Shown here piece after piece: positions 19,725-44,642 of a stretch of 44,642 nucleotides of DNA. The notes under the pieces were generated by a model that was not told the origin of the DNA, ran no database searches, and was given only the letters and a program-made list of their open reading frames with translations. Both the position numbers and the translations under genes were made by a program. The DNA comes from Bryobacterales bacterium (GTDB taxonomy: Bacteria > Acidobacteriota > Terriglobia > Bryobacterales > Bryobacteraceae): positions 1-44,642 of the forward strand of contig PLEX01000180.1 of assembly GCA_003136575.1 (NCBI GenBank). Reading direction: 5' to 3'. Positions within the stretch are counted from its first letter, which is position 1, and every line of letters starts with the position of its first letter.

Positions 19725-19888
19725 CGGAGCGGCTCCTTGGATTTTGTTCTTCCAGACAATGATATATCCCCAACGGCGCGCCGAGCGGGGGAGGCGCGGA
19801 GGGTCGGGGATTGGACATTCCGTAGCCAATGCGGAGGTTCCTCTGGTGCATCGCGATCCCAGCCAATGCGGCGCCCGAAATCCGACCG

Positions 19889-19921
19889 GGAACAATATCA
19901 GCCGGCGCGGCGTCTTATAAT
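19889..19921 (+). promoter_or_regulatory. ECF-type promoter overlapping a TATAAT box
   Basis: GGAAC (19889-19893) and CGTC (19911-19914) are 17 bp apart, matching the RpoE/ECF-group pattern. TATAAT (19916-19921) overlaps the same region and ends seven bases before the sigma-factor ATG. Autoregulation by the encoded ECF factor together with a housekeeping start is a plausible reading. Confidence 0.5.
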
Positions 19922-19928
19922 CGAAAGC

Positions 19929-20612
19929 ATGTTTGAGGCCCCGGTGACCGGATCCTGTTCGCTGAACATAAATGCGAGTCTCACCTCCGAGCAGCAGGCC
20001 ACGCTTGAGGACCTGGCGCTGGTCTCCGCTCTCCAGCGTGCCGATTCGGATGCCTACGAAACCCTGATCCGGCGGTTCCAGTCGCCCGTTTACAACCTGG
20101 CCTGGCGGTTGCTGGACGATGCCGCCGACGCGGGCGACGTAACCCAGGAGGTGTTCCTGAAAGTTTTCCGCAGCGTCAAGAGCTTTCGAGGCGATAGCAC
20201 GCTGCGCACGTGGATATACCGCATCGCGGTGAACGAGGCTCACAACCGCCGGCGATGGCTGTTCCGGCACCGCAAAGGCGAAACGGGGATTGAAGACGTT
20301 TATTCGGCGGACGACAACCGGGAGGCGCCACTGGTCGATGCCGGCGAAACGCCCTTCGATTTCACGATGAACCACGAGGCGCAATTGCTTCTCGAAGAAG
20401 CGCTGGGCGCCGTCAGTCCGGCGTTCCGGACGGTGCTGGTGCTGCGCGAGGTGGAGGAGTTGAATTATGAGGAGATCGCGAACATTCTCGATATCTCCAT
20501 CGGCACGGTGAAATCGCGACTGGTGCGGGGCCGCGAGGCCCTTCGGCGCTATCTGACCAGCCGGCTGAACCCGGCGGGTTCATTGCAACTGGTTCCGGGT
20601 TCGGTGAAGTAG
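19929..20612 (+). CDS. ECF RNA polymerase sigma factor (RpoE-like)
   Basis: The product (227 aa) is an extracytoplasmic-function sigma factor. Region 2 is ALIRRFQ-like (YETLIRRFQSPVYNLAWRLL), then DAGDVTQEVFLKVFRSVKSF, with STLRTWIYRIAVNEAHNRRR for region 2.3-2.4. Region 4 is FRTVLVLREVEELNYEEIAN, then ILDISIGTVKSRLVRGREAL, a typical helix-turn-helix. The linker is about 60 residues, longer than usual. The ATG at 19929 is preferred because upstream codons run through the promoter. The stop abuts the anti-sigma gene, whose ATG follows immediately. Confidence 0.95.
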   Translation: MFEAPVTGSCSLNINASLTSEQQATLEDLALVSALQRADSDAYETLIRRFQSPVYNLAWRLLDDAADAGDVTQEVFLKVFRSVKSFRGDSTLRTWIYRIAVNEAHNRRRWLFRHRKGETGIEDVYSADDNREAPLVDAGETPFDFTMNHEAQLLLEEALGAVSPAFRTVLVLREVEELNYEEIANILDISIGTVKSRLVRGREALRRYLTSRLNPAGSLQLVPGSVK

Positions 20613-29168: not shown

Positions 29169-30815
29169 TTACGGCGATTCGTCGATGACTTCGAGAGCGT
29201 TGATGGCGGCGTAATTCTGGCTGGGAACCAGCGAAATCAGGATCTTGCCCTGTGGGGTTGGCTCAACTCCACGCTGCGTGACAATCACGGCGCGTTTGAT
29301 GGACCCGGACTCCTTCAAAATGTCGAAATTCTTCTTCAGCAGTGCGCCATTGAGCAGAATGTCGAACGCCCGGTTCCCGACGCCCCCGCCCCCCGGGTTG
29401 CCCTCACCAAACCAGTTCTCGGCAAAGTAGAGATTCACCGTGTACTTGCCGGGTTGAGCCACCGGAAGCGCATATGTGATGTTGCCGAAACGCTCGCTGC
29501 GAAACAGTTCCGGGTCCGCATTCTCCACACTGGAATTCAGCCGCGGGATGATTTGCCCGCCCCGGGCGTAATGATCGGGGTCCCACGTTACGCCGCGACT
29601 ATCCGTCAGGCCATGGTCGCGCGCCGCGATTCTGTAGGGCCGTATTTTGCCGGCGACGCCGGGCTGGATGGAGATGGCATTCAGAAACGGCGACTTCGTG
29701 TCGGGCAGAAAGTCCAGATGAACTTTTCCGTCGGCGGCCGGCGAAACATCCTTAAAAACCTTGATATCCGCCATACTCGGGGAACCGGCGTCTGCAATGA
29801 CATCGAAGAGGCTCTCGACGGGCTTTCCATTCAGTCGGACCTGGAACAGGCGGGTTGTCTCGCCCCCTCCCGCCGCGTTGTTTTCGCCGAACAAGGTCTC
29901 GGCAAAGTAGAGCCGCAATTCATAGATGCCCGGCTTCAAGGGAATGTCGTAGCTGAAATTGCCTTCCCGGCGATTGCGGTAGATCTGCTGATCGCGCGTT
30001 CCCCATATCACCTGGTTGCTCGGCGATTGGACCGGGGAACCCCCCGTAAAATAACGGTCGCTTTGCCAGCTCCTTTCAAAGGAATCTGTGTAGCTCCCGG
30101 ATTCCACTCCGCAGAGTATCCGAACCTCCTCGCCTGGGAGCGCGGCCGGGAATGTGCTTACGGACGCTGAAATCCGTCGGTAGTGGCTGCGCGACATAAC
30201 GAAAAGCGCCGCCCCCACGACCAGAAGCGTAAACGCCGCGAGCACCAACCATCTTCTCCATCGGGCGGAACCAGCCGCGTCGTCCGGATGTGGTGAAGCC
30301 GGGCCGATTTCCATCACAGCCGGCACTGTCGCGATCTCAACCGGGTGTGTCGCTTCCTCCTGCGACATGGCGGCAAGCGTGCTCCGCGTTTGACCGTCCG
30401 CCGGGGCCTGAACGGTTTCTGGGTTCCGCAACGGCACCAGCCCTTCGGTTCGCCCGGCTATCGGTGCCGCCGGGGCCCGGACGCGAACAAATTTCGGCGT
30501 GTACTGCCCGGAAGGGATCTCGATCTGGAGCTCGTGCGCCGCCCCCTCGCCTTCGTAGTACTCCTTGAGACGCTTTCTCAGCCTGTGGGCTTCCACCCTG
30601 ACAATCGAATCTCGCTTCTGGTCGAAATCCGGTTTGCGGCCCAAAGCGTCGACCGCGATGTTGTACTCTTTGATCTCGTCGGCTGCTCCGTCGAAGTACT
30701 TGTCGCATACGTACCTCAGCAAGAGAGCGAGATTTGGAGCGCGGCTGAAAATCCCCGACGCCAGGAGTGCATCGACTTCCAGCCGTTCTTTCTCAAACAT
30801 TTCAGCAGTCTGCAT
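29169..30815 (-). CDS. Membrane sensor: winged-helix-like N-terminus, TM, two malectin domains
   Basis: The product (548 aa) divides into four parts. Residues ~8-110 form a conserved N-terminal domain common in Bryobacterales sensors (LLRYVCDKYFDGAADEIKEY and DSIVRVEAHRLRKRLKEYY), which looks like a winged-helix DNA- or protein-binding domain. A Pro/Ala-rich linker follows. One TM segment lies near residue 190-210 (WLVLAAFTLLVVGAALFVMS). Two periplasmic malectin-type domains follow (residues ~230-390 and ~395-545), each with the pattern R-x-F...YxLxLYFAEx-F/W (GIYELRLYFAETLFGENNAA and KYTVNLYFAENWFGEGNPGG). Malectin domains bind disaccharides. The gene is divergent from the TonB receptor gene, so I infer a one-component carbohydrate-responsive regulator. 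Confidence 0.82.
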   Translation of the reverse strand: MQTAEMFEKERLEVDALLASGIFSRAPNLALLLRYVCDKYFDGAADEIKEYNIAVDALGRKPDFDQKRDSIVRVEAHRLRKRLKEYYEGEGAAHELQIEIPSGQYTPKFVRVRAPAAPIAGRTEGLVPLRNPETVQAPADGQTRSTLAAMSQEEATHPVEIATVPAVMEIGPASPHPDDAAGSARWRRWLVLAAFTLLVVGAALFVMSRSHYRRISASVSTFPAALPGEEVRILCGVESGSYTDSFERSWQSDRYFTGGSPVQSPSNQVIWGTRDQQIYRNRREGNFSYDIPLKPGIYELRLYFAETLFGENNAAGGGETTRLFQVRLNGKPVESLFDVIADAGSPSMADIKVFKDVSPAADGKVHLDFLPDTKSPFLNAISIQPGVAGKIRPYRIAARDHGLTDSRGVTWDPDHYARGGQIIPRLNSSVENADPELFRSERFGNITYALPVAQPGKYTVNLYFAENWFGEGNPGGGGVGNRAFDILLNGALLKKNFDILKESGSIKRAVIVTQRGVEPTPQGKILISLVPSQNYAAINALEVIDESP

Positions 30816-31343: not shown

Positions 31344-34300
31344 ATGACATCTGACAAGAGGTCCACAATAACAGACATGTTTAGAACAAGACTTTTTTTG
31401 GCGCTGGCGACCGCGTGCGTAGCCTTCGCGCCGAACTTGCCCGCGCAATCCATATATACGACGCTGACGGGAATCGTCTCCGATCCGTCTCAGGCAGTAG
31501 TGCCTCAGGCGAAAGTCGTGCTGCGCGATCAGGGGTCGGGGTCCCTGCGCGACACGGTGACGAATAACGAAGGCTACTATACCTTCGCGTCAGTGCCCGT
31601 CGGTACCTACGAGTTGAACGTCGAGGCGAAGGGCTTTGAGAAATACAAAGCAAGCGACATCGAGATGCGCGGCGGCGAAAAGCGTAATCTGAATGTCAGC
31701 CTGACTGTCGGCGCAACCACGGAGACGGTAGACGTGACGGGCGTGAACGACGCCGAGGTTCCGGTCGACTCCGGCGAGAAGTCCACGACGCTTTCCACCA
31801 AGGAGTTGCAGAACTTCATCCAGACTGGCAGCAACGCGGCCGAGTTCATCAAGATCATGCCGGGCTTTGGCATCAATAACGGCACGTCGAACGCCCCCAA
31901 CTACACCGGGGAGGTGATCGGGATCAACGGCGGCGGCAACGCCGGTTCGCAGAGTCCCCTCAACGGAGCGTATTCTTACAATGGATTACCCGGTAATTCT
32001 CTTGACATCACGGCCGACGGAGCCCACGTTTCCGATCCCGGCTGCAATTGCGACACGCCCGTCAACCCCAACTCCGACATGATTGCGGAAATTAAGGTAA
32101 CGATGTCCAACTTCAGCGCCGAGAATCAGAAGGGACCGGCGGTTATCAGCACGGTGGCCAAGTCCGGCGGCAGGGACCTTCACGGTTCCGGGTTCTTTTA
32201 TGCCCGCAACTACGCGATGAACGCCAACGACGCTCTCTTCAATCAACAGGGGCAATCCCGGCCGGAAAACAAGTATTACTACCCAGGCTTTACCGTCGGT
32301 GGTCCGGTTATTTTCCCGAAAACCAATTTCAACAAGAAACGGGACAAGCTGTTCTTCTTTACGGGCTACGAGTACTTCTACCAGGTGCTCGACACCGGCC
32401 TCCTGCAGGCGACCGTGCCTACCGCGAACGAACTGGCTGGCAATTTCTCTCCGGCCTCGGTTGCGGCAGAAGGAAACAAGACGGCATCTGGTGGCGCTCC
32501 GGGACAAATCAACAACACCACCAACCCATTTTTCGGTTCGTTTAACAATGGAGTGCTCGCTCCGTCGTTGATCGATCCCAACATGCAGAACCTGATGAAG
32601 CTCTATCCGACTGCAAACGCCAATCCGAATGCCACCGGCGGCTTCAACTATGTACAGGCTGAAATCTTCAACCAGAACAACACGCAGTGGATGACGCGTG
32701 TCGACTACAACATCAGCGACAGCACCAAGCTGTTCGTTCGGTTCAACCTTCAGGGCGAAGTTCAGCAATTCCCGGTAGGCCTCTGGTGGCGGCAAACCGA
32801 TCAGGTTCCGTATCCGACCCCGATCGAAGGCAAGAACTCGTCCGATTCGATCACAGCTTCGCTGACCCATGTGTTCAGTCCGACCATGACTAACGAGTTC
32901 GTATTCGGCTACACTTATGTCGGCTTCCCGAATGTTTTCCAGGATCCTTCCAAAGTGAACCGCGCGAACGTTGGTTACAGCTACGCCGGTCTCTTCAAGA
33001 ACGGCGTAGCCCAGATGCCCTCATTTGGCGGCCTCGGCTGGACACCGCAGGAAGCCGCTGTGGTTTTCAATCCCGGTGGATTTGAAGCGGGCGGTCCGTC
33101 AGCTGGACTATATGCGGATAAATGGCTTCCCAGCGCCAGCGACACCGTTTCCAAAGTTTGGGGTACGCATACCGCCAAGTTTGGCCTTTTCTGGGAACAT
33201 ATTCGCAACTCCCAGCCGGCAAATAACGACACCAATGGCAACCTGAACGTCTGGGCTTCGCAATCCAATACGACGGGCAACGAATACGCAGACTTGCTCC
33301 TCGGCAACCTGGATCAATACACCGAAACTAACTTCAACCGCATCAATGATATCGGATACACGACTTTCGAGGGATTCGGTCAGGATTCCTGGAAAGTGAA
33401 TAAGCGGCTCACTCTCGATCTCGGTATCCGGTTGACCCACTTCACTCCCTGGGCGGACAACGAAGGCTTCGGCTACTCGATCTTCGATCCTTCCAAGGTC
33501 AATCCGGCCTGCACTCCGATCCAGTATTGCGGATTCGAGTGGCACAAGATCGATCCATCTGTGCCGATAGGAGGTTTCCCGACCCGCGCGCTGTTCTACC
33601 AGCCTCGCGTCGGTGCGGCATACGATCTTTTCGGGAACGGCAAGACAGTCCTTCGTGGTGGATGGGGCCGTTACTACTACCACTCCGGACAGTTCACCAG
33701 CGGTCTTGATGTCGCGGCCGGAAGCGAAACTATTACGCTCGGCAACAACTCCGGGACCAAGACGTACAACTCGGTATCAAATGGCGCGGTGACTCCTCTG
33801 TTGGCAAGCGAGATTTCAACGATCAACCCCGGCACCTCGGCAGGATCGCCGGCAGCCGTCGATAGCACCGATAATAAGCAGCCGCACACCGACAGTTACA
33901 GTGCGACAGTGTCCAGACGCCTTCCGTGGTCAAGTCTGCTGGAGGTGGCCTACGTTGGAAACGTAAGCCGCGATCAGGCGAACAGCAGCGGAGCCGGCAG
34001 CAACATCAATCTCGTTCCGGCCGGGTCCCTCCAGGCTCTGGCGACGAAGCTCGGTGTCTCGAACGCCAATAGCCTCAGCACAGGCCAGATCAATTCTCTT
34101 CGCCCGCTGCCGGAATACAATGACGTTTTCCTGGCCACCAATAACGCCTATTCCAACTACAACGCACTGCAGGTGACGTGGGTCAGAAGCAAGGGTCGTT
34201 ACGTGATCAACATGAATTACACTTACGGGAAGTCGATGGGAATCGTCAACCCGGCGCTCGACCAGTACAATCTCAACAACGATTACGGCGTGCTGGCCAA

Positions 34301-34934
34301 TAATCGCCCGCAGATCTTCAACGCAGCTTATTCCGTCGAACTGGGCAGTCCGGTCAAGAACAAAGCCGCCGGCTCGTTGATCAACGGCTGGCAATTGTCC
34401 GGCATCACGCAGCTTCAAAGCGGGACGAACCTTGTCGGCCAGAGCGGAGAGAACTTCGGAATGGCGCTAAACGGCGCCGTCATTCCGGGGTCGCAGTCGG
34501 CGCTGAACCCGAATGGAGTCGGCATCAGCAACCTGACGCTGCTCGGCACGCCGGACATACAGTTGAATCCGATCGAGACATGTAATCCGGCTTCCGGTCT
34601 TGGACATAATCAGTTCATTAATCCGACCTGCTTCTCTTTCCCCACCAAGGTAGGGCAGAATGGACCGAGCGTACTCGCTCCGATCTATGGGCCGGCGTTC
34701 TTCAACTCGGATCTGGGACTCTTCAAGAACTTCAATATGAGCGAAGGTAAGAGGAAGCTCCAGTTCCGCTTCAATGCTTATAACTTCCTCAACCATCCGT
34801 TGTGGTCGTTTAACGGTAATAACCTCTCGCTTGGCTTCAATCCGAACGGTACAGTATCAACCCCGGATTTCGGAACGGTGAACAGCAAGCAGGGACACCG
34901 TGTGGTACAGGCCGCCGTCAAGTTCTACTTCTAA
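31344..34934 (+). CDS. TonB-dependent receptor, Oar-like, with carboxypeptidase-regulatory domain
   Basis: The product (1196 aa) is an outer-membrane TonB-dependent transporter of the large acidobacterial Oar-like type. A signal peptide (RLFLALATACVAFAPNLPAQ) is followed by a carboxypeptidase regulatory-like beta-sandwich (TGIVSDPSQAVVPQAKVVLR ... NVSLTVGATTETVDV), then a plug domain with NGAYSYNGLPGNSLDITADG, then a ~850-residue barrel. The last residue is an aromatic Phe (VVQAAVKFYF), as required for barrel insertion. AGGGG four bases before ATG 31344 supports that start; ATG 31377 would give a more typical signal peptide. It heads a run of seven genes, so it probably imports the substrate handled there. 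Confidence 0.93.
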   Translation: MTSDKRSTITDMFRTRLFLALATACVAFAPNLPAQSIYTTLTGIVSDPSQAVVPQAKVVLRDQGSGSLRDTVTNNEGYYTFASVPVGTYELNVEAKGFEKYKASDIEMRGGEKRNLNVSLTVGATTETVDVTGVNDAEVPVDSGEKSTTLSTKELQNFIQTGSNAAEFIKIMPGFGINNGTSNAPNYTGEVIGINGGGNAGSQSPLNGAYSYNGLPGNSLDITADGAHVSDPGCNCDTPVNPNSDMIAEIKVTMSNFSAENQKGPAVISTVAKSGGRDLHGSGFFYARNYAMNANDALFNQQGQSRPENKYYYPGFTVGGPVIFPKTNFNKKRDKLFFFTGYEYFYQVLDTGLLQATVPTANELAGNFSPASVAAEGNKTASGGAPGQINNTTNPFFGSFNNGVLAPSLIDPNMQNLMKLYPTANANPNATGGFNYVQAEIFNQNNTQWMTRVDYNISDSTKLFVRFNLQGEVQQFPVGLWWRQTDQVPYPTPIEGKNSSDSITASLTHVFSPTMTNEFVFGYTYVGFPNVFQDPSKVNRANVGYSYAGLFKNGVAQMPSFGGLGWTPQEAAVVFNPGGFEAGGPSAGLYADKWLPSASDTVSKVWGTHTAKFGLFWEHIRNSQPANNDTNGNLNVWASQSNTTGNEYADLLLGNLDQYTETNFNRINDIGYTTFEGFGQDSWKVNKRLTLDLGIRLTHFTPWADNEGFGYSIFDPSKVNPACTPIQYCGFEWHKIDPSVPIGGFPTRALFYQPRVGAAYDLFGNGKTVLRGGWGRYYYHSGQFTSGLDVAAGSETITLGNNSGTKTYNSVSNGAVTPLLASEISTINPGTSAGSPAAVDSTDNKQPHTDSYSATVSRRLPWSSLLEVAYVGNVSRDQANSSGAGSNINLVPAGSLQALATKLGVSNANSLSTGQINSLRPLPEYNDVFLATNNAYSNYNALQVTWVRSKGRYVINMNYTYGKSMGIVNPALDQYNLNNDYGVLANNRPQIFNAAYSVELGSPVKNKAAGSLINGWQLSGITQLQSGTNLVGQSGENFGMALNGAVIPGSQSALNPNGVGISNLTLLGTPDIQLNPIETCNPASGLGHNQFINPTCFSFPTKVGQNGPSVLAPIYGPAFFNSDLGLFKNFNMSEGKRKLQFRFNAYNFLNHPLWSFNGNNLSLGFNPNGTVSTPDFGTVNSKQGHRVVQAAVKFYF

Positions 34935-34989
34935 AGAACCTGGCTGCTACTGAGCTTGATAAACTGGGACGGGATGGCTTTTCCTGTCC

Positions 34990-36090
34990 ATGACGATGAA
35001 TGCAGATAAAGACGTTGAGGGGCGATTCCGAAAGGGATCGCCCCTTCTGCTTGTTCTCGCGGCCTTGTCTGCTTTCGCGCAATCGTCGGTTCCTTCGGGG
35101 GCCAGATATTGGACGGCATCCACGCGTTTCGTCGGATCTTCCCAGTGCGCGATCTGTCATCCGTATGAGGCTGCGAAGTATGCGGCGAGCAGTATGTCGC
35201 GGGCAATGGAATCCGTTACCACTTGCGCCATTCTTCAGGGCGATATACATTACTCGTACCGAAGCGGTGAATACAGCTACTCGATAACTCGCGACGGCGC
35301 GAAGGTGATCTATACCGTTACCAACGGAAAGGAACGATTCACTACGCCTCTCGAGTACGCGTTTGGACGTGGGAAGGCCGGGCAAACATATGTTTACTCC
35401 GTCGCCGGCCGCTACTACGAGAGCCGCGTCAGTTACTACTCGGAGATTAATAATCTCGACCTTACGGTAGGCGCGAGGAACGCCCCGCCGGCGGACCTTG
35501 CCGCCGCCGCCGGCCGGCTGATGGAAGGAAACGATCCGCGAGACTGTTTCGGCTGCCACACGACGGGTGCCCGGCTCGCGGGCACTCTCCAACTCAGGGA
35601 TTACGAGCCCGGCGTGCAGTGCGAGAGCTGCCACGGTCCTGGCGGCGATCATCTGGATGCGCTGATCGCCGGCAAGCCGATCACGGGAACGATCCGGGCG
35701 CTGGCAAACATGGACCCGCAACAGAACAACGAGTTTTGCGGAACGTGTCATCGCACCTGGCAGACCGTAGCGATGCTGGGCATCAAGGGCATCAACACGT
35801 CCCGATTTCCCGCGTATCGCATCACGAGCAGCCCCTGCTTCTCCCTCGATGATCGGCGTATCGCCTGCACCACCTGTCACGATCCCCACGGAGGGCTGGT
35901 ATCGGAAGACAAGGCGTACGATTCCAAATGTACGGCGTGTCACAACGGCTCGGATAAGAAAGTTTGCCCCGTGGCAAAGGAGTCGTGCACATCCTGCCAC
36001 ATGCCCAAAGTGTCCCCGCCGGAGGCCCACCATGCCTTCCCCGACCATTGGTTCCGCATCGTCCATTCCAAAGACGACTACCCCGAATAA
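34990..36090 (+). CDS. Heptaheme c-type cytochrome (C554-like), copy 1
   Basis: The product (366 aa) has a signal peptide (LLLVLAALSAFAQSS) and seven CxxCH haem-binding motifs: CAICH (53), CFGCH (186), CESCH (211), CGTCH (250), CTTCH (293), CTACH (314) and CTSCH (333). The pattern suits a periplasmic or surface electron carrier of the cytochrome c554/c-prime type. Between haems 1 and 2 lies a ~125-residue haem-free, beta-rich segment with YTVTNGKERF, LEYAFGRGKAGQTYVYS and [11 protein letters not shown], which is strongly shared with the paralogue at 40559. Extra cysteines lie at 79, 283 and 326. A long hairpin at 35019-35044 falls inside its signal-peptide codons. Confidence 0.92.
   Translation: MTMNADKDVEGRFRKGSPLLLVLAALSAFAQSSVPSGARYWTASTRFVGSSQCAICHPYEAAKYAASSMSRAMESVTTCAILQGDIHYSYRSGEYSYSITRDGAKVIYTVTNGKERFTTPLEYAFGRGKAGQTYVYSVAGRYYESRVSYYSEINNLDLTVGARNAPPADLAAAAGRLMEGNDPRDCFGCHTTGARLAGTLQLRDYEPGVQCESCHGPGGDHLDALIAGKPITGTIRALANMDPQQNNEFCGTCHRTWQTVAMLGIKGINTSRFPAYRITSSPCFSLDDRRIACTTCHDPHGGLVSEDKAYDSKCTACHNGSDKKVCPVAKESCTSCHMPKVSPPEAHHAFPDHWFRIVHSKDDYPE
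35019..35044 (+). terminator. Hairpin with GAAA loop within the cytochrome leader codons
   Basis: GGGGCGATTCC-GAAA-GGGATCGCCCC has an 11-bp stem with one G-T wobble and a tetraloop, followed by the T-rich TTCTGCTTGTT. It looks like a terminator or attenuator between the TonB receptor and the downstream genes, yet it overlaps the coding sequence for the signal peptide. Confidence 0.45.
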
Positions 36091-36154
36091 ATCCGCCCCC
36101 TCGGCCCAAACGGCGATACAATAGAGAGTGAGCGCGTTATTCCCGCAGTAACCT

Positions 36155-37240
36155 ATGCTGACTCTGATAGCCATTCTGCTGCTTAGTCAATCCCCGGCCA
36201 AACCCGCTGATTTCTCCGCCTTGGCGCGTGATGCAGCCGTGGCGCGCGACGCGGGCCGTCTGGATGACGCCTTCGCCCTTTATACGAAAGCGCTGAAGAT
36301 TCGCCCGGACTGGGACGAGGGTCTGTGGAACGCCGGTTCCATTGCATACGACAAAGACAGGTATTCCGATTGCGCGCCGCTGTTTCGCCGTCTTGCTGCG
36401 ATCAAGTCCGACCTCGCTCCCGCGTGGACTATGCTGGGTCTGTGCGAATACGGACTCCACGACTACGATTTGGCGCGTAAGAGTCTGCTTCAGACGGAAC
36501 AGCTTCACTTCGATGGTCCCGCGGAGCTATCGCGCGCCGCGCGCCTGCATCTGGCGATCGTTTTAACGAAGGCCGGTGGCTTCGAAAAGGCTTTGATCCT
36601 GCTCACCGAGCTGACCCGCATGGATCACAAGACACAGGACATTGCAATAGCCGCCGGTATTGCGGGCCTCAGAAAGCCGTGGGTGCCGTCGGAAGTTCCG
36701 GAGCCGGAGCGTGAGAAAGTCGCATTGCTCGGCGATGCCATGTCGACGGGAATGGAATTGGACGCAAAGGGCGCCATCCCTAAGTTTGAAGCTGCGCTGG
36801 AGAAGTACCCCGACATCGCCGATATCCACTTCCGTTTTGGAGCGTTCCTGATGGAGCAACTCCCGGATCGTGGGATTGCGGAAATCAAGCGCGCAATTGA
36901 GCTGGACCCGAAGCACATCCCGGCGCTTGTGGGACTTGCCAGCATTTATTTGAAGAATGGTGATCTGAAGGCAGCCGGCGAGTACGGACTCCAGGCAATC
37001 TCAGCTGGCCCGGACGACTTCGCGACACATGTGGTTTATGGCCGAGTGCTGCTGGAAAGCGACGATCTTGCGCGCGCCACCTCGGAGTTGGAAACCGCGG
37101 TGCGTCTGGTTCCCGATAGCGCCGATGCCCACTATAGTCTTGCGACCGCTTATTCGCGGCTCGGCCGCCGGGAGGATGCCCAGCGCGAACAAGAGGAATT
37201 CAAGCGCCTGCGCAAAGTGATGGACGCCGGTCACCCGTAA
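36155..37240 (+). CDS. Secreted tetratricopeptide-repeat protein
   Basis: The product (361 aa) starts with a short hydrophobic leader (MLTLIAILLLSQSPAKP) that could be a signal peptide. It is then made of about eight TPR-like helix pairs (for example AGRLDDAFALYTKALKIRPD, ALVGLASIYLKNGDLKAAGE, AHYSLATAYSRLGRREDAQR). No catalytic domain is visible, so a scaffold role is inferred. A TACAAT at 36117-36122 gives a possible internal promoter in front of it. It is followed after 23 bp by the VWFA gene, with AAAGGA as ribosome site. Confidence 0.85.
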   Translation: MLTLIAILLLSQSPAKPADFSALARDAAVARDAGRLDDAFALYTKALKIRPDWDEGLWNAGSIAYDKDRYSDCAPLFRRLAAIKSDLAPAWTMLGLCEYGLHDYDLARKSLLQTEQLHFDGPAELSRAARLHLAIVLTKAGGFEKALILLTELTRMDHKTQDIAIAAGIAGLRKPWVPSEVPEPEREKVALLGDAMSTGMELDAKGAIPKFEAALEKYPDIADIHFRFGAFLMEQLPDRGIAEIKRAIELDPKHIPALVGLASIYLKNGDLKAAGEYGLQAISAGPDDFATHVVYGRVLLESDDLARATSELETAVRLVPDSADAHYSLATAYSRLGRREDAQREQEEFKRLRKVMDAGHP

Positions 37241-37263
37241 CTCAACCAAAGGACCAAAGTGTC

Positions 37264-39408
37264 ATGAAAAAAATATACCTGTCACCGATTGCGATAGCTC
37301 TTGTGTTTCTGAGCGGTCCCGCCCGATCTCAGCAAGCGGCGCCCCAGACCCCTACCGTTAAAGCCAACGTCGACGAAGTTGTGCTCGACCTTATCGTTCG
37401 CGACAAGAAGGGCAAGCCGATAACGGACCTGAAGCCGGATGAGCTGATTATCACCGACAACGGCGTGAAGCAGACCATAACGAGCTTTCGTTTGGTGCAC
37501 GGTTCGGAGGCGATCAGCCAGACGGGCGCCACGACGAAACTCGATCCGCTGCGCCAGTTGCGCCTGGTGACTCTGGCATTCGAAAACCTCGGCGACGCCG
37601 CGCAACGCAAGACCGCTCGCGAGGCTGCGGTGGATCTGATCAAGGGCGAACAGGGCGCGAATGTCTTCTACTCGGTGGTGGCTCTCAATTCCCGGCTTCT
37701 GGTGCTTCAGCCGTTTACGTCGGACAAGGCCCTGCTGACTTCCGCCATCGAGAAGGCGACCGCCGGATCGAACGGGGCGAAGATGGCGTCGGATTCCGAC
37801 GCAATACAAGCACAATTGAAACAGCTGGTGAACGTCAACGGCGTCGCCGGGGCGGACCAGGAGGCAAACCTGATTTCGGCGGCGAACGACCTCGCCGCCA
37901 GTGCGCCTGGACGCGGCGGCGGGGACAACACGGCGCCATTCCTGGCTCAGGTGATGCTCGACATGCTGCGCATGGATGCCGGCGCGGTATCGAGTGGCAC
38001 GCGGTTATCGCTCGAAGCGTTGCGCTCTCTGGTGCAGGGCCTTATCCCGATGCCCGGCCGCAAGTCGGTCCTTTACTTCAGTTCGGGTATGTACGTCCCC
38101 AATGAACTCGACGTGATGTACAACAACCTGATCAGCATGGCGAATCGTTCCAACGTCACTTTTTATTCCGTCGACACCCGCGGAGTCACCACTTATTCGG
38201 ATAACAGTGAAGCCCTGAATGAACTGAGGGGAGCTGCGCACGCCTCCGCCACTGCGGTGACTCAGCAGGGTGGGGCGGTAACCAAGGGCGAGGTTTTTGC
38301 TTCCGATAACGCCGACAACGCCGCCCGCTCCAACATGCAGCTGAAAATACGCGACCTCGCGGAGGCGACCGGCGGCTTCCTGATTGGCGAAAGCAACGAT
38401 CTGCGCGGTCCGCTGCACAACGTCAACGAAGAGATCAGCAGTTACTACGAAGTAACTTACAATCCCAATATCCAGAACTACGATGGCTCTTTCCGCAAGC
38501 TGGCCGTCTCCGAGAGCCGCAAAGATCTCGTAGTCCATGCACGTAATGGTTACTTCGCCCTGCCCCCCGGAGCGGTTGCCACCGGACTGCAGTCTTTCGA
38601 GATGCCTCTTCTGAAGGCGATATCCGATGGCAAGACCTCAGACGACGTGCAATTCGCAGCGGGTGCCCTCGTGCTCCAGCCCAAAGCTGCGGGAACCGAT
38701 GTCTACCTGACGATCGAAGTTCCGCTGCGCGGTCTCCAGCCGAAGGCGGGCACAACCGGACCCACGCAAAACGTTCACTGCGCCATTGCGGTGCTGATCA
38801 AGGACTCCTCCGGAACGGTCGTTGATAAATTGACTCGCGACCGATCCTACAACGTCACCCCCGAGCAACTCAAGGCCGGGAACATGGTGGAGAACTCCTC
38901 CATCTCGCTGCCGTCCGGCAAATATACGGTCGAGAGCGCCGTCCTCGACTACGAAAGCGCAAAGATCGGCATGCATCGCAGTGAACTAACTATTCCGGCA
39001 ATAACCTCCGGCGTTGCCATATCCTCGCTTACGAGCGTCAAATCCTACACGCCGGACGCCAAAGGTCTCGATCCGAACGACCCGTTCCAGTTTCAGGGTG
39101 GCAAAATCGCGCCGACCCTGAACAGTTCCGTCGCCCGCACAGAAGGCTCCGCGCTGCGTCTTTTCTTCACAGTTTATCCGGATCCGAAGATTTCCGCCAA
39201 GCCGACGGCGGAGATCGAGTTTCTACAGAACGGGAAGAGTCTTCAGAAGGTACCCATGCCTCTGCCCGACGCCGATAAGAGCGGCAGAATTCCATTTGTG
39301 ATGACGATCCCGGCGGCCGCAATTCCGGCTGGCGAGTACGAAATCCGGGCCGTGGCGAAGCAGGGCGACAGCTCGTCGGCCACATCGACTCGTGTCAAAA
39401 TCGAGTAA
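37264..39408 (+). CDS. VWFA-related acidobacterial secreted protein
   Basis: The product (714 aa) has a signal peptide (IYLSPIAIALVFLSGPARSQ). It then shows the acidobacterial VWFA-related domain (TIGR03436 type). The opening block is VDEVVLDLIVRDKKGKPITD with LKPDELIITDNGVKQTITSF. A VWA fold follows with GRKSVLYFSSGMYVPNELDV and VTFYSVDTRGVTTYSDNSEA. Metal-site (MIDAS) residues are not in the canonical DxSxS form. A C-terminal ~280-residue beta-rich region resembles Ig-like adhesion domains. It may act as a protein-binding or adhesive part of the cluster. Its stop overlaps the next ATG (TAATG), so translation is coupled. Confidence 0.88.
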   Translation: MKKIYLSPIAIALVFLSGPARSQQAAPQTPTVKANVDEVVLDLIVRDKKGKPITDLKPDELIITDNGVKQTITSFRLVHGSEAISQTGATTKLDPLRQLRLVTLAFENLGDAAQRKTAREAAVDLIKGEQGANVFYSVVALNSRLLVLQPFTSDKALLTSAIEKATAGSNGAKMASDSDAIQAQLKQLVNVNGVAGADQEANLISAANDLAASAPGRGGGDNTAPFLAQVMLDMLRMDAGAVSSGTRLSLEALRSLVQGLIPMPGRKSVLYFSSGMYVPNELDVMYNNLISMANRSNVTFYSVDTRGVTTYSDNSEALNELRGAAHASATAVTQQGGAVTKGEVFASDNADNAARSNMQLKIRDLAEATGGFLIGESNDLRGPLHNVNEEISSYYEVTYNPNIQNYDGSFRKLAVSESRKDLVVHARNGYFALPPGAVATGLQSFEMPLLKAISDGKTSDDVQFAAGALVLQPKAAGTDVYLTIEVPLRGLQPKAGTTGPTQNVHCAIAVLIKDSSGTVVDKLTRDRSYNVTPEQLKAGNMVENSSISLPSGKYTVESAVLDYESAKIGMHRSELTIPAITSGVAISSLTSVKSYTPDAKGLDPNDPFQFQGGKIAPTLNSSVARTEGSALRLFFTVYPDPKISAKPTAEIEFLQNGKSLQKVPMPLPDADKSGRIPFVMTIPAAAIPAGEYEIRAVAKQGDSSSATSTRVKIE

Positions 39409-40562
39409 TGCCTCGGCGTGAGAGTTTCAGGACGTCAGGAATTCTGGTTCTGGCACTGGCGGCGGCGCTTGGGGCCCAGGGCCCGGCCAGACCAACGGCC
39501 CAGCCGCCCGCCGACGACCAGATCCTGAAAGACGCCATAGGTGCCCAGCAGTCCGGCAACACCGACGCCGCGATCCGCGGCTACGAGAAGTACCTCGCCG
39601 CGCATCCGGATAATCCCATCGCGCTTTCGAATCTGGGCGCCGCCTACGCGAAAAACGGCCGCTACTCGGACGCGATCACGCAGTACAAGCACGCGCTGAA
39701 ACTTCAGCCGTCCAACGCGCCGGTCGAGATGAATCTGGCGTTGGCATACTACAAAATCGGCGAAGCGGAAGAGGCTGCGCCGATCTTCGAAAAAGTCCAC
39801 CGCGCCGCGCCCGATCAGTTCCAGCCCACCATGCTTCTCGCCGATTGCTGGCTCGCGATGGGAAAGAACAAGCAGGTTGTGGAACTCCTCGATCCCATCG
39901 CTCAGCAGCGCGCGGACGACCTTGGCGTCGCCTATTTGCTCGGCACGGCGCTGGTGCGCGACAATCAGGTCGAGCGCGGCCAGGTCGTGATCGATAAGAT
40001 TCTCCGCAATGGCGATTCCGCCGAAGCCCGCCTTCTGCTTGGCACCACCAAGCTCAACGGGAACGACTTTGCGGGCGCGCTGGAAGACCTGTCCAAAGCT
40101 GTCGCACTGAATCCGGAGTTGCCGGACCTGTACTCGTTCTACGGCCTCGCGCTGCTGCGCACCGGCGACACGAAGGGCGCGGCGGAGGCCTTCCGCAGGG
40201 AACTGGCCGCCAATCCGAACGATTTCAATTCCAATCTTCAGCTGGGCGCTCTCCTCAAAATGGACGAGAATTACGACGGCGCACTCCCTTATTTAAACCG
40301 GGCCCTCCAGGTTCGCCCCGGCGATCTGGGCGTTCGTTATCAGCTCGCGACGATCGAATTCGCCCAAAATAACGTCGAGCAGGCGCGCGCGCAACTGGAA
40401 GCGATCGTGAAGGAATCGCCAAACTTTACTGAAGCGCATGTCACGCTCGCGACCGTTTACTATCGCCTGAAACTCAAAGCGGAGGGAGACCGCGAACGCG
40501 CAATAGTGCAGAGGTTGAATGCGGAGGCGCAGGAGAAACAGCCGGGAGCGGTTGCAAAGTGA
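39408..40562 (+). CDS. Secreted tetratricopeptide-repeat protein, paralogue of the 27390 TPR half
   Basis: The product (384 aa) has a signal peptide (SGILVLALAAALGAQ) and about ten TPR units across residues 35-375. It aligns over ~300 residues with the TPR part of the deiodinase-like protein on the other arm: both share NLALAYYK, EAAPI, LLADC, a proline at DPI, and the order of helices. It lacks the C-terminal thioredoxin domain. Overlaps TAATG with the VWFA gene and GTGA with the cytochrome gene place it in the middle of a tightly coupled operon. Confidence 0.88.
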   Translation: MPRRESFRTSGILVLALAAALGAQGPARPTAQPPADDQILKDAIGAQQSGNTDAAIRGYEKYLAAHPDNPIALSNLGAAYAKNGRYSDAITQYKHALKLQPSNAPVEMNLALAYYKIGEAEEAAPIFEKVHRAAPDQFQPTMLLADCWLAMGKNKQVVELLDPIAQQRADDLGVAYLLGTALVRDNQVERGQVVIDKILRNGDSAEARLLLGTTKLNGNDFAGALEDLSKAVALNPELPDLYSFYGLALLRTGDTKGAAEAFRRELAANPNDFNSNLQLGALLKMDENYDGALPYLNRALQVRPGDLGVRYQLATIEFAQNNVEQARAQLEAIVKESPNFTEAHVTLATVYYRLKLKAEGDRERAIVQRLNAEAQEKQPGAVAK

Positions 40563-41638
40563 CCCCGGTATTGGCTTGTGTGGAAGCCGGTTCACGTGGT
40601 CTTCGGTTAATCTGCCTCGCCGTACTGCCGCTGGCGATCTGCAATTCAGCTCCGGCCGCAACGTCCGCCGATTGCGCCATCTGCCACCGGGCCGAGACGT
40701 CGCAGTTTGTCCACGCCGATATGACGCGCGCTCTCGAAAGCGGCGCGAATTGCGCAATCCTGAAGGCTAATCCCAGGCTGACGACCACGATCAATGGGTA
40801 CTCTTACCAAATCGAAAGAGTCGGCAACGAGTCGATTTACACCGTGTCCAACGGGAAGGAAACGGTCCGTGTTCCCCTCGAATGGGCGTTCGGGCAGGGA
40901 GAAGCGGGCCAGACTTATATGTTCCAGCGCGACGGCCGCTGGTACGAAAGCCGTGTGAGCTACTATACCGCGGTAAAGGGCCTCGATCTGACCATAGGTG
41001 CGCAGACTGTTCCCGCCCGCAATCTTGACGAAGCGGCCGGGCGTCTTACCGCGCCCACGGAAGCGGGACAGTGTTTCGATTGCCACGCCACTCACGCCGT
41101 CGCAAAGCGCGAATTGACTCTTCCGGATATGACGGCCGGCGTGCAGTGCGAACGATGCCACGGCGATGCCGATCGTCATCTTGCCGCGGAACTATCGGGC
41201 GACAAAGCGAACGCCGCGATGCGCAAACTCGGCGCGATGAGCACCGAGGAGGTTTCCGATTTCTGCGGACAGTGCCACCGAACCTGGTCGCAGATCGCAG
41301 CCCAGGGTCCGCGCGGAATCCTGAATATCCGCTTCCAGCCGTATCGTCTGCAAAGCAGCCGGTGTTACGACGCCGAAGATCCCCGCATCCGCTGCACCGC
41401 CTGCCACGACCCGCACGCGCAGATACGCACCGTACCCGCCGATTACGACGCAAATTGCAAAGCCTGCCACTCGCGCGGCGCGAAGCCGGCGACAAAAGCG
41501 TCATCCCGCATTTGCCGGGTCTCCACGAAAAACTGCGCGACCTGCCACATGCCGCAGCTCGAACTTCCGGGAGCGCACAAGAAGTTCTACGATCATGAAA
41601 TCAGGATTGCCAGGGCCAATGAAAAGTACCCGGACTAA
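40559..41638 (+). CDS. Heptaheme c-type cytochrome (C554-like), copy 2
   Basis: The product (359 aa, GTG start overlapping the previous stop) has a signal peptide ([17 protein letters not shown]) and seven CxxCH motifs: CAICH, CFDCH, CERCH, CGQCH, CTACH, CKACH and CATCH. Order and spacing follow the first cytochrome, including the beta-rich segment between haems 1 and 2 ([37 protein letters not shown]). The two proteins are clear paralogues within one gene cluster. A full-length overlap of about 20 bp or more with the downstream CRTAC1 gene suggests co-translation. A role in electron transfer is inferred from haem content; partners are unknown. Confidence 0.92.
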
Positions 41639-43328
41639 GAGTAAAGCGCGACTCTCGCGCAGGGACATTTTGACGCTCGCCGCCGGCGCGGGTGCGGCGC
41701 GCCTGCTCGGCGCCGACAAAGCGGATGCAGCGCCCGTATTTGAAGAAGTGCCGCCCTCAGTCAGCGGCATCACATGGGTCCATGAAAACGCCATGTCACC
41801 CGAGCGATATCTGCCGGAGACGCTCGGGCCTGGCTGCGCCTTTCTCGATTTCGATAACGATGGCTGGATGGACATCTACCTCGTAAACAGCGGCCCGTCC
41901 GATTTCTACAAGCCTTCGCAACCCATCCGCAACGCGCTTTATAAGAACAACCGCGACGGCACCTTCACAGATGTGACCGAAAAGGCCGGTGTGAGCGGCG
42001 GTACTTTCGGAATGGGGGTCGCGGTTGGCGACTATGACAACGATGGCTGGCCGGATATCTTCGTCACGGCCTACGGCAAATGCATTCTCTACAAGAACAA
42101 CCAGGATGGCACCTTTACCGACGTAACGAAGAAAGCCGGCCTCGAAACACCCGGCTGGACCACGAGCGCCGTCTGGTTCGACTACGATAACGACGGCCAT
42201 CTGGATCTGTTCCTGTGCAGCTTCGTCGACTATGGCACCACCGAACACATGTCCTGCGGCGATAACAAGCTCGGGCGGCACTACTACTGCATCCCGCGCG
42301 TGTTCCGCGGTACCGCGAGTTACCTGTATCACAACAACGGCGATGGCACGTTTACGCAGGTTCAGAAGGGTACCGATATCGAAAAGTCTCTCGGCAAAGG
42401 GCTCGGAGTGGTTGCCACGGATATCAATAACGACGGCCTGATGGATCTCTTCGTCGCCAACGACACAGTTCAGAATTTTCTCTACGTCAATCGCGGTAAA
42501 GACAAGAACGGAAAATGGCAGTTCGAGGAGATGGCGCTCGCCGCCGAAGTGGGATACAGCGACGGCGGCCGCGCGCGCTCCGGCATGGGCGTGGATGCCG
42601 CGGACGTTTTCAACTCCGGCTATCAGGATCTTTTCGTCGCCAACGTCGATCAGGAGATGTTCTCGCTGTACAGGAATCAGAAGAACGAGACCTTCCGCGA
42701 TGTCGCTCATGCTAACGGCGTGGCGCAGTCCACACGCCTGCTCAGCGGCTGGGGGCTGAAGTTTTTCGACTACGATAACGACGGCGCGGTAGACCTGATC
42801 CTCTCGAACGGGCATCCCGACGACATGATCGAGAACTACTCGGCGCAGGTGCATTATAAGGAGCCGATCCTTCTGTTCCATCAGGAAGACGGCAAACTCC
42901 GGGACGTGAGCGCCGAGTCCGGACCGGCGTTCAGCAAGTCCTGGTCGGCCCGTGGTCTTGCCTCGGGCGACTTCAATAACGACGGACTGATCGATATCCT
43001 GATCGCGACGAACGGCGGCGCGCCTGTGTTACTGAAGAATCGTTGCGGCGCGGGCAACAACTGGCTGGGCCTGAAACTACAGGGTGTGAAGTGCAACCGG
43101 GATGCCATCGGCGCGAAGATTCGTTGGTCGGCCGGGGGCGTGGTCCGGTCGCGGCTGAAGAACAATGGCGGCAGCTATTTGTCGTCCCACGATCCCCGTG
43201 AAGTGCTCGGGGTTGGCAAGGCGGACAAGATCGACTGGGTGGAAATCACCTGGCCGCAGCCGAGCGGCAAGGTCCGGAGAATCGAGAATCCGCCGCTGAA
43301 TCGGTATATCGCGGTGTCGGAGGCCTGA
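41619..43328 (+). CDS. CRTAC1-family FG-GAP/ASPIC-UnbV protein with Tat signal
   Basis: The product (569 aa) starts with a twin-arginine signal ([20 protein letters not shown]), so it is probably exported folded. Six or seven calcium-binding FG-GAP repeats follow ([66 protein letters not shown]), predicting a beta-propeller. The C-terminal ~90 residues are an ASPIC/UnbV domain ([40 protein letters not shown]). ATG 41619 is preferred since it gives a standard Tat n-region; an ATG at 41595 adds eight residues. It is the last gene of the cluster and overlaps the cytochrome gene. Confidence 0.9.
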
Positions 43329-43395
43329 CGCTTCGGAGTGCTATTCTGGGGACACTGGTTGTGGTCCTGACGCCGCCGGAAGGGAGGTAACGCGA

Positions 43396-43707
43396 ATGAA
43401 CTCACTGTTGCAGAGCCAGTTCATGCAGGTCGCGTTGCCTATCATGGTGACGCTGGTCGTCACGATCTGGACGTCGCAGTGGTCCCAGAACAAGCGTTTC
43501 GACGACCTGAACGGACGGTTCGCAGATTTGAGGGAAGACCTGAAATACCGTTTCGACGACATAAATCGCCGTTTCGACGAGGTCAACCACCGTTTCGACG
43601 AGGTCAACGCCAGGCTCGAACGCATCGAGACAAAACTCGATAATCACGAAGAACGTCTGGTCCGGCTGGAAGAGCGGACATCTCCGGTCGCCAGACGCAT
43701 TTCGTAA
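43396..43707 (+). CDS. Small membrane-anchored coiled-coil protein
   Basis: The product (103 aa) has an N-terminal hydrophobic segment (FMQVALPIMVTLVVTIWTS, residues ~9-27). A long amphipathic helix follows, built of heptads of the type RFDDLNG/RFDEVNH, predicting a parallel coiled coil. The C-terminus ends EERTSPVARRIS. A strong ribosome site (GGGAGGT) stands eight bases before the ATG. The family is unnamed to me. The 3' end lies 41 bp from the truncated end of the retroelement reverse transcriptase, so the last residues may have been altered by that event. Confidence 0.75.
   Translation: MNSLLQSQFMQVALPIMVTLVVTIWTSQWSQNKRFDDLNGRFADLREDLKYRFDDINRRFDEVNHRFDEVNARLERIETKLDNHEERLVRLEERTSPVARRIS
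43549..43611 (+). repeat. 21-bp period coding repeat (heptads)
   Basis: CGTTTCGACGA recurs at 43549, 43570 and 43591, exactly 21 bases apart, and CGTTTCGACGAGGTCAAC is repeated without change at 43570 and 43591. It encodes consecutive heptads of the coiled coil and suggests recent internal duplication. Confidence 0.7.
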
Positions 43708-43747
43708 ATCAGATCGCTGGCAACTTCATTCGCACCGGCCGTCACAC

Positions 43748-44213
43748 TTACTTTGGTTGACGGAGGTCTTTCAAAATCCGGTGGTCGATCGACGCGAAAC
43801 ACTTGCGAACATCGCACTTCAGCACATAGGGATATCGCCGTGCGCCTTCCTTTGCCCGTTCGAGCGCCCGATGCGTCCCGAAGCCCTTCCGGCAGGCGAA
43901 TGAATCCTTCGAGAAGCGCTTTTCGAAAATCGGTTCGACGACGCGAGTCAGCGCATGATGCACTACGCGGTCCCTGAAAGGCGCAGCCGAAATGTGACGC
44001 GGCTTTGGGTCGCTCACCATGAACGTTCGATAAGGCCCCGGCCGGTAACTGCCGCTGCTGAGTTCTCTCTGCAGCTTCAGCAATTCCCATTCGAGATTCA
44101 GGTTGAACGCGGCCACGTCTGGTCGCCGTCGTTTTCCGGCCGCAGCCGCATGAGCTGCAGCGCAGATTCTGAAAGCTCACAATCGACGGCCACAGATTAC
44201 CTGTTCTCATCAT
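43748..44213 (-). pseudogene. DGR-type reverse transcriptase, frameshifted and truncated
   Basis: The ATG at 44213 overlaps the avd stop (ATGA). The first frame reads GNLWPSIVSFQNLR, the usual start of diversity-generating-retroelement and related RTs. Near 44153-44165 one extra base shifts the frame. The continuation reads AAHAAAAGKRRRPDVAAFNL, LQRELSSGSYRPGPYRTFMV, PFRDRVVHHALTRVVEPIFE and YVLKCDVRKCFASIDHRILK, which covers the RT N-terminal part up to the first catalytic Asp region. It then ends at DLRQPK before the YxDD box. The 466-nt span minus one base is a whole number of codons. The protein cannot be an active polymerase. Confidence 0.88.
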
Positions 44214-44578
44214 GCGGGTTTTCCAGCCGGGCGCGTCGACTTCAGCCATCCACCCGCCATGCGCCCGATCTCATCCAGTCGCCCGACGGCGAAGCTCCAC
44301 GAATCGAGCGCCATCAACTTCAAATCCCTGGCCAGTCTCAACAGATACCGGATGCTGTTGATCTTCCCGATTGCGTCGGCCAGAAGGTGGTCCTTCTTCG
44401 CGCTGTAGGCGGCTTCCACCAGCAACATCAGCACATCGAGCGCTGTCGCACTCAGCCTCTCGCCCACAGTGAACTTATGCGACTTGGGAAACTTCTCCAC
44501 CTTCGGCAGCAGCCACAGGACAAAGTCGTAGGCCTTGCCGACCGCGACAGGTGCGCTCTTGTCGCTACGTTCTCCCAT
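44210..44578 (-). CDS. avd: Avd-like four-helix-bundle protein (DGR accessory)
   Basis: The product (122 aa) resembles Avd, the accessory variability determinant of diversity-generating retroelements, and the related 23S rRNA intervening-sequence proteins. Typical blocks are AYDFVLWLLPKVEKFPKSHK, then FTVGERLSATALDVLMLLVE, LADAIGKINSIRYLLRLARD and LMALDSWSFAVGRLDEIGRM, each an amphipathic helix. The C-terminus is basic. Avd binds the RT as a pentamer in known systems. This copy looks complete even though the RT that overlaps its stop is broken. No template repeat is visible between the two genes. Confidence 0.85.
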   Translation of the reverse strand: MGERSDKSAPVAVGKAYDFVLWLLPKVEKFPKSHKFTVGERLSATALDVLMLLVEAAYSAKKDHLLADAIGKINSIRYLLRLARDLKLMALDSWSFAVGRLDEIGRMAGGWLKSTRPAGKPA

Positions 44579-44600
44579 TACACGCCTTCAAAAAATTTCC

Positions 44601-44619
44601 TCCGGCGCTTCGCGCCGGA
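44601..44619. other. Perfect GC hairpin upstream of avd
   Basis: TCCGGCGC-TTC-GCGCCGGA has an 8-bp perfect stem. On the minus strand it is followed by GGAAATTTTTT, so it may terminate the gene upstream of avd, beyond this window. Its position and stem length also recall hairpins found after variable repeats in diversity-generating retroelements. Confidence 0.45.
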
Positions 44620-44642
44620 TAAGTAGAGTAGAGGAGCACCAC

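Follow-up and report, generated by a model that had tools for sequence, protein, structure and literature searches.

In Methylococcus capsulatus, copper-responsive cluster 1 encodes surface multihaem c-type cytochromes together with TonB-family proteins, according to the available parts of two reports (PMC4831470; MCA0421 in PMC6281684). Hydrazine-synthase-like clusters, in the available excerpts of their description, carry a CRTAC1-family gene flanked by genes for haem-enzyme subunits, an example of a CRTAC1 propeller accompanying haem enzymes elsewhere (PMC12758564), and planctomycete-specific cytochromes (PSCyt) have been tentatively tied to sugar use through gene context, as the accessible portion of a further paper has it (PMC5615132). 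The locus considered here lies on contig PLEX01000180.1 of a Bryobacterales bacterium, where seven consecutive plus-strand open reading frames (ORFs) fill positions 31344-43328 and encode a TonB-dependent-receptor-like protein, two heptahaem cytochromes, two tetratricopeptide repeat (TPR) proteins, a VWFA protein and a CRTAC1-type propeller. The window, that is, the whole stretch of DNA analysed, is one entire contig of 44,642 bases from a genome (G000) of 6.6 Mb across 242 contigs. The seven genes and their families, listed in a first-pass annotation of this DNA, were confirmed, and the junctions between them measure, from 5' to 3', +55, +64, +23, -1, -4 and -44 bp. Four of the six are thus overlaps or gaps below 25 bp, joining five genes, in agreement with the same annotation.

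From gene content, recurrence, co-occurrence, clade specificity and the propeller fold, all computed here, we tentatively favor the view that the locus is a conserved acidobacterial module coupling TonB-driven uptake to a periplasmic multihaem redox arm, most likely for glycans or glycoconjugates. An uptake receptor joined to a periplasmic redox complex was also the first-pass proposal, and this stays the best reading, although the gene set is larger than was claimed. The seven genes are real, and the span given for them left out two conserved minus-strand genes at 27390-29066 and 29169-30815; because the products of these, a TPR-deiodinase protein and a malectin regulator, also belong to the system, it exceeds seven genes.

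The first-pass annotation had treated dispersal of these genes in relatives as fatal to its proposal; well outside the genus they are instead still found together. When named genomes were scanned using a cytochrome alignment of 19 rows, 60 loci were returned, all bearing acidobacterial names except L139 (labelled Nevskia soli) and L140 (Oligoflexia, E 6e-5), the latter a weak match that was left out, so that the counts rest on the remaining 59. At most 8 kb from the cytochrome, a TPR protein of the TPR5 type was found in 39 of these loci, a receptor of the window's clade in 29, a TPR protein of the TPR3 type in 25, a CRTAC1 gene in 24 and a VWFA gene in 16, with all five partners present in nine. 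These partner counts are lower bounds, because 8 kb was available on both sides in only 30 of the 59 loci. Gene order runs receptor-cytochrome-TPR-VWFA-TPR-CRTAC1 in L086 and L088, receptor-TPR-cytochrome-CRTAC1 in L123, L124, L128, L131 and L136, and receptor-TPR-TPR-cytochrome-VWFA(s)-CRTAC1 in L109, L112 and L120. Of 297 genomes sampled across the phylum, 14 carried the cytochrome (E 1e-30), counting the one from which the window comes. Six cytochrome-bearing genomes, from four families, lay outside the class, and other members of the set were present at five of these six loci (L153, L154, L155, L157 and L158, not L156, which meets a contig end). Because the arrangement recurs across the phylum, we regard it as non-random. 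Forty-four loci held at least three members of the set (L154, which duplicates L107, is included here and in the 24 VWFA rows and 35 receptors considered below), and the families found in at least five of the 44 were the set's six plus two types of probable regulator; a family resembling protein kinases recurred in four.

Two sets of loci at the edge of this distribution were seen in passing. L139 (NZ_CAJCHS010000085.1, labelled Nevskia soli, Pseudomonadota) carries a family cytochrome and a CRTAC1 gene, and its cytochrome groups with those of Bryobacterales, so the record is either a mislabelled bin or a case of transfer. In a sister family (L052, L053, L055, L056 and L057), distant heptahaem homologues adjoin a gene with a weak likeness to TPR proteins (33-53 bits) in loci that also hold one or two CRTAC1 genes and are without the receptor clade, hinting at a possible older cytochrome-TPR-CRTAC1 core.

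Co-inheritance was also observed among 19 genomes of the genus, each of which holds 40 to 67 receptors similar to that of the window among the matches listed; 37 candidates were scored per genome. A close receptor group, made up of long matches at 869-2741 bits and two short fragments at 66-69% identity, separates from a background of at most 296 bits. This group and the close CRTAC1 group (at least 64% identity) occupy the identical eight genomes (G000, G006, G009, G011, G014, G015, G017 and G018); two random sets of eight would coincide once in 75,582, a figure that ignores shared ancestry, and the clade cut-offs were set after inspecting gaps in the match lists. Cytochromes scoring at least 214 bits occur in the same eight genomes and in G013, and the VWFA protein (E 1e-25) in six of the 19, all within the eight. 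In G018, the locus (L141) reads receptor-TPR-VWFA-TPR-CRTAC1 and holds no cytochrome; a type-1 cytochrome stands alone on a separate contig (L033). Partner families also show correlated distances (r 0.39-0.91), and for each of the seven pairs none of 1000 permutations reached the observed value, the species tree being ignored. These correlations support common descent and fall short of proving interaction.

The cytochrome is the sole obvious haem redox centre of the set. The two copies in the window, P0002 (type 1, 366 amino acids, 34990-36090) and P0006 (type 2, 359 amino acids, GTG start, 40559-41638), have exactly seven CXXCH motifs each and are 42% identical to one another, bearing out the earlier description of two paralogous seven-haem proteins. 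Both exceed the PF13435 gathering threshold of 20.8 bits (34.0 and 34.6 bits, respectively) and fall within the cytochrome c554 superfamily. In the cytochrome tree, the clade that holds P0002 has ten rows and is supported; P0006 falls in a weakly supported eight-row group drawn mostly from TPR-cytochrome-CRTAC1 clusters. Pairing itself, named in the first-pass proposal, does not define the system: at 390 HMM bits, among the window and its 59 relatives, two family cytochromes occur in the window and in L125 alone. We read the pair as a local merging of two cluster types, not as a signature of the system.

A structure alignment (A3) covers 55 of the 62 family cytochromes. Seven CXXCH motifs are present in 52 rows and six in the other three; contig ends clip two of these, L087 and L139. 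All 55 rows also contain a C-X(11-14)-CH pattern, which we read as the non-haem cysteine preceding a CXXCH, and two non-haem cysteines, C269 and C319 (P0006 numbering, here and below), are invariant across the alignment. As candidate distal haem ligands, M55, H207, H286, M331, H340 and H346 are invariant or almost so. Since M331 adjoins its own haem histidine, the distal ligands possibly number fewer than seven, with one or two haems perhaps five-coordinate. Position 55 is methionine in each of the 53 rows that reach it. In a separate 29-row alignment, this position is methionine in all 19 cluster-type rows versus histidine in all ten distant rows, and the stretches of cytochrome c554, 6i5b and MccA that align here, each a weak match by itself, have histidine as well. 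A methionine ligand raises haem potential; if the M55 ligand is real, electron acceptance would therefore be favored. An AlphaFold model of P0006 (pLDDT 83.1, pTM 0.80) places a strand-rich insert between the first two haem motifs, at approximately residues 59-145.

Several known cytochromes were considered as identities and rejected. Cytochrome c554 was ruled out because it has four haems against seven CXXCH motifs here, and NrfA nitrite reductase because its CXXCK catalytic haem is present in none of the 55 rows. MccA has eight haems, including one at a CX15CH site; identity with this sulfite reductase was ruled out by the count of seven and by the lack of CX15CH in all 55 rows. An MccA-like copper site was also dropped, as the profile alignment placed no MccA cysteine opposite C326 of P0002, a conserved non-haem residue.

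The first gene of the set encodes the receptor (P0001, 1196 amino acids, 31344-34934), an N-terminal regulatory domain (CarboxypepD_reg, 7e-20) followed by a large outer-membrane barrel (OMP_b-brl_4, 2.1e-142). No plug family was found on it at 1e-3, and a plug-like stretch was recognized by eye only, with the motif DGAHVSDPGCNC. Within the wider form of this motif, DGAHxxDPGCNC, 28 of 35 clade receptors have the GCNC and none of 27 generic receptors does, the 35 including L154 and also L152, which comes from the window's own genome and is a background receptor by the genus bit scores. The seven clade receptors lacking GCNC are those of L107, L108, L116 and L154, which have DGSRxxDIGSNN, of L126, which has DGANLLDPGNQ, and of L127 and L152. 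The motif is a possible metal or disulfide site. Divergent from the receptor gene, at 29169-30815 on the minus strand, lies P0008, a probable membrane-bound regulator that matches malectin (PF11721, 5.7e-38) over two stretches and appears by eye to cross the membrane once, its N-terminal domain being cytoplasmic. Homologues scoring at least 350 bits occur at 12 other loci, and Pfam confirmed malectin in all four that were tested; 20 control loci around distant cytochromes gave only matches of about 60 bits, to three proteins. The second probable regulator type has only the N-terminal domain in common with P0008.

These features bear on an unlikely alternative that still deserves attention, namely that the locus serves reductive metal acquisition, with the receptor importing a metal chelate (copper, iron or humic-bound) and the heptahaem cytochromes reducing the metal and so freeing it. 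Some ferri-siderophores do release their metal through periplasmic reduction. In its favor stand the receptor's plug motif, with its histidine and a cysteine pair (GCNC) that would suit a metal, and the two invariant non-haem cysteines of the cytochrome; by gene content the locus also resembles the Methylococcus copper-responsive cluster, in which multihaem cytochromes accompany TonB-family proteins as far as the available text describes it (PMC4831470). However, the families recurring in the 44 loci include none for siderophores or metal transport, the adjoining regulator carries malectin domains, and GSNN replaces GCNC in the receptors of other classes.

A further alternative, which we consider improbable, is extracellular electron transfer, in which a conduit to outside acceptors such as humics or iron oxides would be made up of the cytochromes and the receptor barrel. 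In its favor, the 29-row cytochrome profile matched the Protein Data Bank (PDB) chains 6i5b (3.5e-18), 6qvm (3.4e-16) and 6r2q (5.6e-16), the first of which we take to be OcwA and the last MtrA, and many hosts are, by their record titles, metagenome-assembled genomes from bog, lake and soil. However, these profile matches cover short CXXCH stretches and weaken with the 55-row cluster-type profile (6r2q 9.6e-11, 6i5b 4.7e-8), which gave no match to MccA at 1e-5. A fold search of the cytochrome model against the PDB returned nothing at E 0.001 or better, the best match being a weak one to MccA (E 0.049, TM 0.27). Moreover, none of the seven proteins belongs to an MtrB-like porin family, the barrel is a receptor bearing an N-terminal regulatory domain, and the Terriglobales loci described below are sugar-associated.

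The remaining members of the set lie between and beyond the cytochrome genes. The two TPR proteins, P0003 (TPR3 type, 361 amino acids, 36155-37240) and P0005 (TPR5 type, 384 amino acids, 39408-40562), were recognized through TPR matches and are only 24% identical, and the TPR5 type is the commonest cytochrome partner. Between them, the VWFA protein P0004 (714 amino acids, 37264-39408) scores 255.7 bits against the TIGR03436 cut-off of 81.25, which upholds its assignment to this acidobacterial family, although the MIDAS metal motif DxSxS expected of a VWFA domain is absent from all 24 aligned rows (23 distinct) as read off the printed alignment. The propeller P0007 (577 amino acids, 41595-43328) matches FG-GAP_3 (7e-54) and UnbV_ASPIC (1e-13) and falls within the CRTAC1 family. 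Its model superimposes on mouse CRTAC1 (9etn; E 5.5e-27, TM 0.69/0.72) and, less closely, resembles GlcNAc-binding fungal lectins (TM 0.34-0.50) and integrins. Among near relatives it is the best conserved component, at 85-87%. By eye, its N-terminus (SRRDILTLA) was taken as a Tat signal and those of the other six proteins as Sec-like, so that all seven look exported.

P0009 (27390-29066, minus strand) consists of TPRs followed by a C-terminal deiodinase-like thioredoxin-fold domain with the motif FGSYTCPNFR, whose TCP holds the single cysteine. It scores 55.0 bits against a gathering threshold of 27 for PF00837. The C-terminal domain recurs at 12 other loci with no match in the 20 control loci, the deiodinase family was confirmed by Pfam in all three homologues tested, and, among the 19 genus genomes at E 1e-60, matches reaching the deiodinase-like part are confined to five of the eight receptor-clade genomes (G000, G006, G009, G014 and G018). 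Several of the domain-bearing loci have it adjoining the TPR-cytochrome pair, which would fit a thiol or halogen redox system whose imported substrate, a disulfide, peroxide or organohalide, is reduced by this protein together with the cytochrome. We hold this to be quite improbable as the function of the whole set, given that the domain is confined to 12 related loci and five of the 19 genus genomes, that its NCBIfam deiodinase score (NF038285, 130.6 bits) lies under the cut-off of 250, that a cysteine stands where deiodinases carry selenocysteine and that the recurring genes of the 44 loci include none other for dehalogenation. Of the two substrates guessed at in the first-pass annotation, halogenated compounds thus remain weak, with one deiodinase-like domain to their credit, and polysaccharides gain indirect support.

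That support comes in part from Terriglobales, where the same cytochrome family stands beside other receptor types. A receptor lies within 3 kb of the cytochrome in seven of ten loci, against a chance background of 8% that assumes about 50 receptors per 6 Mb, as in the window's genus. A glycoside hydrolase (GH) lies near the cytochrome in six of the ten, the families being nearly all different: GH92 (L159), GH30 with CBM6 (L161), GH29 (L162), GH3 with an FGGY kinase and LacI (L163) and GH31 (L164). The sixth locus is that of cultured Granulicella tundricola, whose plasmid pACIX902 (L168, NC_015065.1) carries the cytochrome with receptor, CRTAC1 and TPR genes; LacI, GH30, GH88 and a gene of an alginate lyase family surround them. 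On this plasmid, the set sits among genes of the kind used on uronic-acid-type polysaccharides, together with a cytochrome c3 family gene. The bulk neighbor scans behind these counts kept the best 25 families each and used all 37 Terriglobales ORFs from nine loci, with L167 left out and Granulicella taken from its annotated record; 42 of 51 ORFs from nine random Terriglobales stretches served as control. Ten Terriglobales proteins and zero controls were also scanned singly, by which the GH30 of L161 came to be counted, and the hydrolase-free loci L138, L160, L165 and L166 were judged from the bulk family list only, except for one L166 protein. The glycan reading is preferred because of this gene context together with the malectin regulator and the lectin-like propeller.

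Several observations weigh against that reading. Terriglobales receptors beside the cytochrome score 227-322 bits and fall outside the window's clade, and therefore the sugar link may not carry over. Hydrolases account for 5 of 37 test ORFs versus 2 of 42 random-locus ORFs among the families listed, a modest excess that does not reach significance (p 0.17), and all sugar-type genes, a post hoc grouping for which the test ORFs were inspected more closely than the controls, for 10 of 37 versus 2 of 42 (p 0.007) among the same. Bryobacterales neighbors show little sugar bias, with at least two GH31 and at least three sugar-isomerase-like genes in 84 of 148 ORFs, and the families recurring in the 44 loci do not include a glycoside hydrolase, SusD, an inner-membrane sugar transporter or a dehydrogenase. 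Malectin regulators are present in nine of the 44 clusters, and two proteins of the second regulator type gave no Pfam match when scanned. The metal-friendly cysteine pair of the receptor belongs here as well, as do the 11 of 59 cytochromes that lack any partner within 8 kb, both flanks being complete for six of these. Finally, G008 carries a CRTAC1 protein at 59% identity without the receptor clade, and for this reason a sharp cut within the genus requires 64%. That the genes are mere neighbors, separate exported proteins kept adjacent without joint function, as the solitary cytochromes and the large size of the receptor and CRTAC1 families in these genomes might suggest, is very improbable given that a single clade of each family is involved, with presence matching in eight of 19 genomes, and that gene orders are rearranged and one genome (G018) has a relocated cytochrome.

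For a module that couples glycan uptake to a redox arm, we infer the sugar link, the cellular location, the docking and the direction of electron flow as follows. The malectin-domain membrane regulator would sense carbohydrate and switch on the divergent operon, and the receptor would import the ligand. This ligand would be held by the CRTAC1 propeller, whose fold is lectin- or integrin-like, and by the beta-domain insert of the cytochrome. With the TPR partner as its dock, the heptahaem cytochrome would take electrons from the ligand or from a partner enzyme and pass them to the respiratory chain. Reverse flow, in which the cytochrome donates electrons to the ligand or enzyme, seems less likely. 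The VWFA protein and the second TPR protein may be assembly or docking parts, and the TPR-deiodinase protein may provide an additional thiol-redox step in some clusters. A more specific version, that the locus encodes a new TonB-coupled periplasmic machine of several acidobacterial classes in which a methionine-ligated, beta-insert heptahaem cytochrome oxidizes imported glycans or drains that oxidation, we consider doubtful; were it true, it would constitute a redox branch of glycan uptake.

Acidobacteria rank among the commonest soil bacteria, and we know of no role for many of their expanded families, CRTAC1, VWFA, TPR and multihaem cytochromes among them. Co-inheritance of one clade of each such orphan family suggests a shared, testable function for these proteins, and, with the set recurring in soil and freshwater Acidobacteria of which cultured carriers exist, direct testing is feasible. 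These carriers include Granulicella tundricola MP5ACTX9 (locus ACIX9_RS21385-RS21410), Acidobacteriaceae bacterium KBS 96 and Bryobacterales F-183. If the sugar link is true, an electron-transfer arm will have been added to glycan uptake, which would explain why such soil bacteria retain exported multihaem cytochromes.

Other features of the window lie outside this gene set. Near the contig end, a bAvd-like protein (43748-44116, minus strand; PF22296, 6e-19) and a 122-amino-acid reverse-transcriptase piece (44210-44578, minus strand; PF00078, 9e-8) together resemble the remnant of a diversity-generating retroelement; no template/variable repeat pair was seen in 36000-44642, and the repeats near the contig end amounted to no more than propeller blades, coiled-coil repeats and short pairs of a chance-like kind. 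A minus-strand ORF at 18411-20384 has FG-GAP-like DxDxDG repeats by eye. Rfam and tRNA scans of the window gave no matches, and promoter (5 sites versus 4.9 expected) and terminator (24 versus 13.8 expected) scans were not used.

Comparison with known systems places the locus beside several without equating it to any. No description of the gene set was found in open-licence papers, consistent with the first-pass remark that no characterized equivalent was known; as far as that literature reaches, each domain family is known and their combination and clade-specific inheritance are undescribed. MccA and cytochrome c554 are among the nearest fold or profile neighbors of the cytochrome, although MccA differs from its seven-haem, CX15CH-free sequence and gives a weak fold match. 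Porin-cytochrome complexes such as MtrCAB, including those of Verrucomicrobia, likewise place an outer-membrane barrel beside a multihaem cytochrome in the accessible part of their description (PMC5615132), whereas here the cytochrome has seven haems (MtrA is a decahaem protein), the barrel is of receptor type and no MtrB family occurs in the seven proteins. The PSCyt proteins differ in that the Pfam matches of the seven proteins include no PSCyt or PSD family. The Methylococcus cluster shares multihaem cytochromes beside TonB-family proteins, a likeness of gene content and not of sequence, and its descriptions, in their available portions, name no CRTAC1, VWFA or TPR protein; those of hydrazine-synthase-like clusters, similarly limited, name ABC transporter binding proteins and no receptor or heptahaem cytochrome. 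Sus/CUT glycan loci resemble the set in their CarboxypepD-type receptor beside a carbohydrate-type regulator, and hydrolases adjoin the set in its Terriglobales relatives. Unlike those loci, the set has no SusD or recurring hydrolase, and the window's seven proteins include no SusD or glycan-degrading enzyme; its core is instead a multihaem cytochrome with VWFA, TPR and CRTAC1 proteins.

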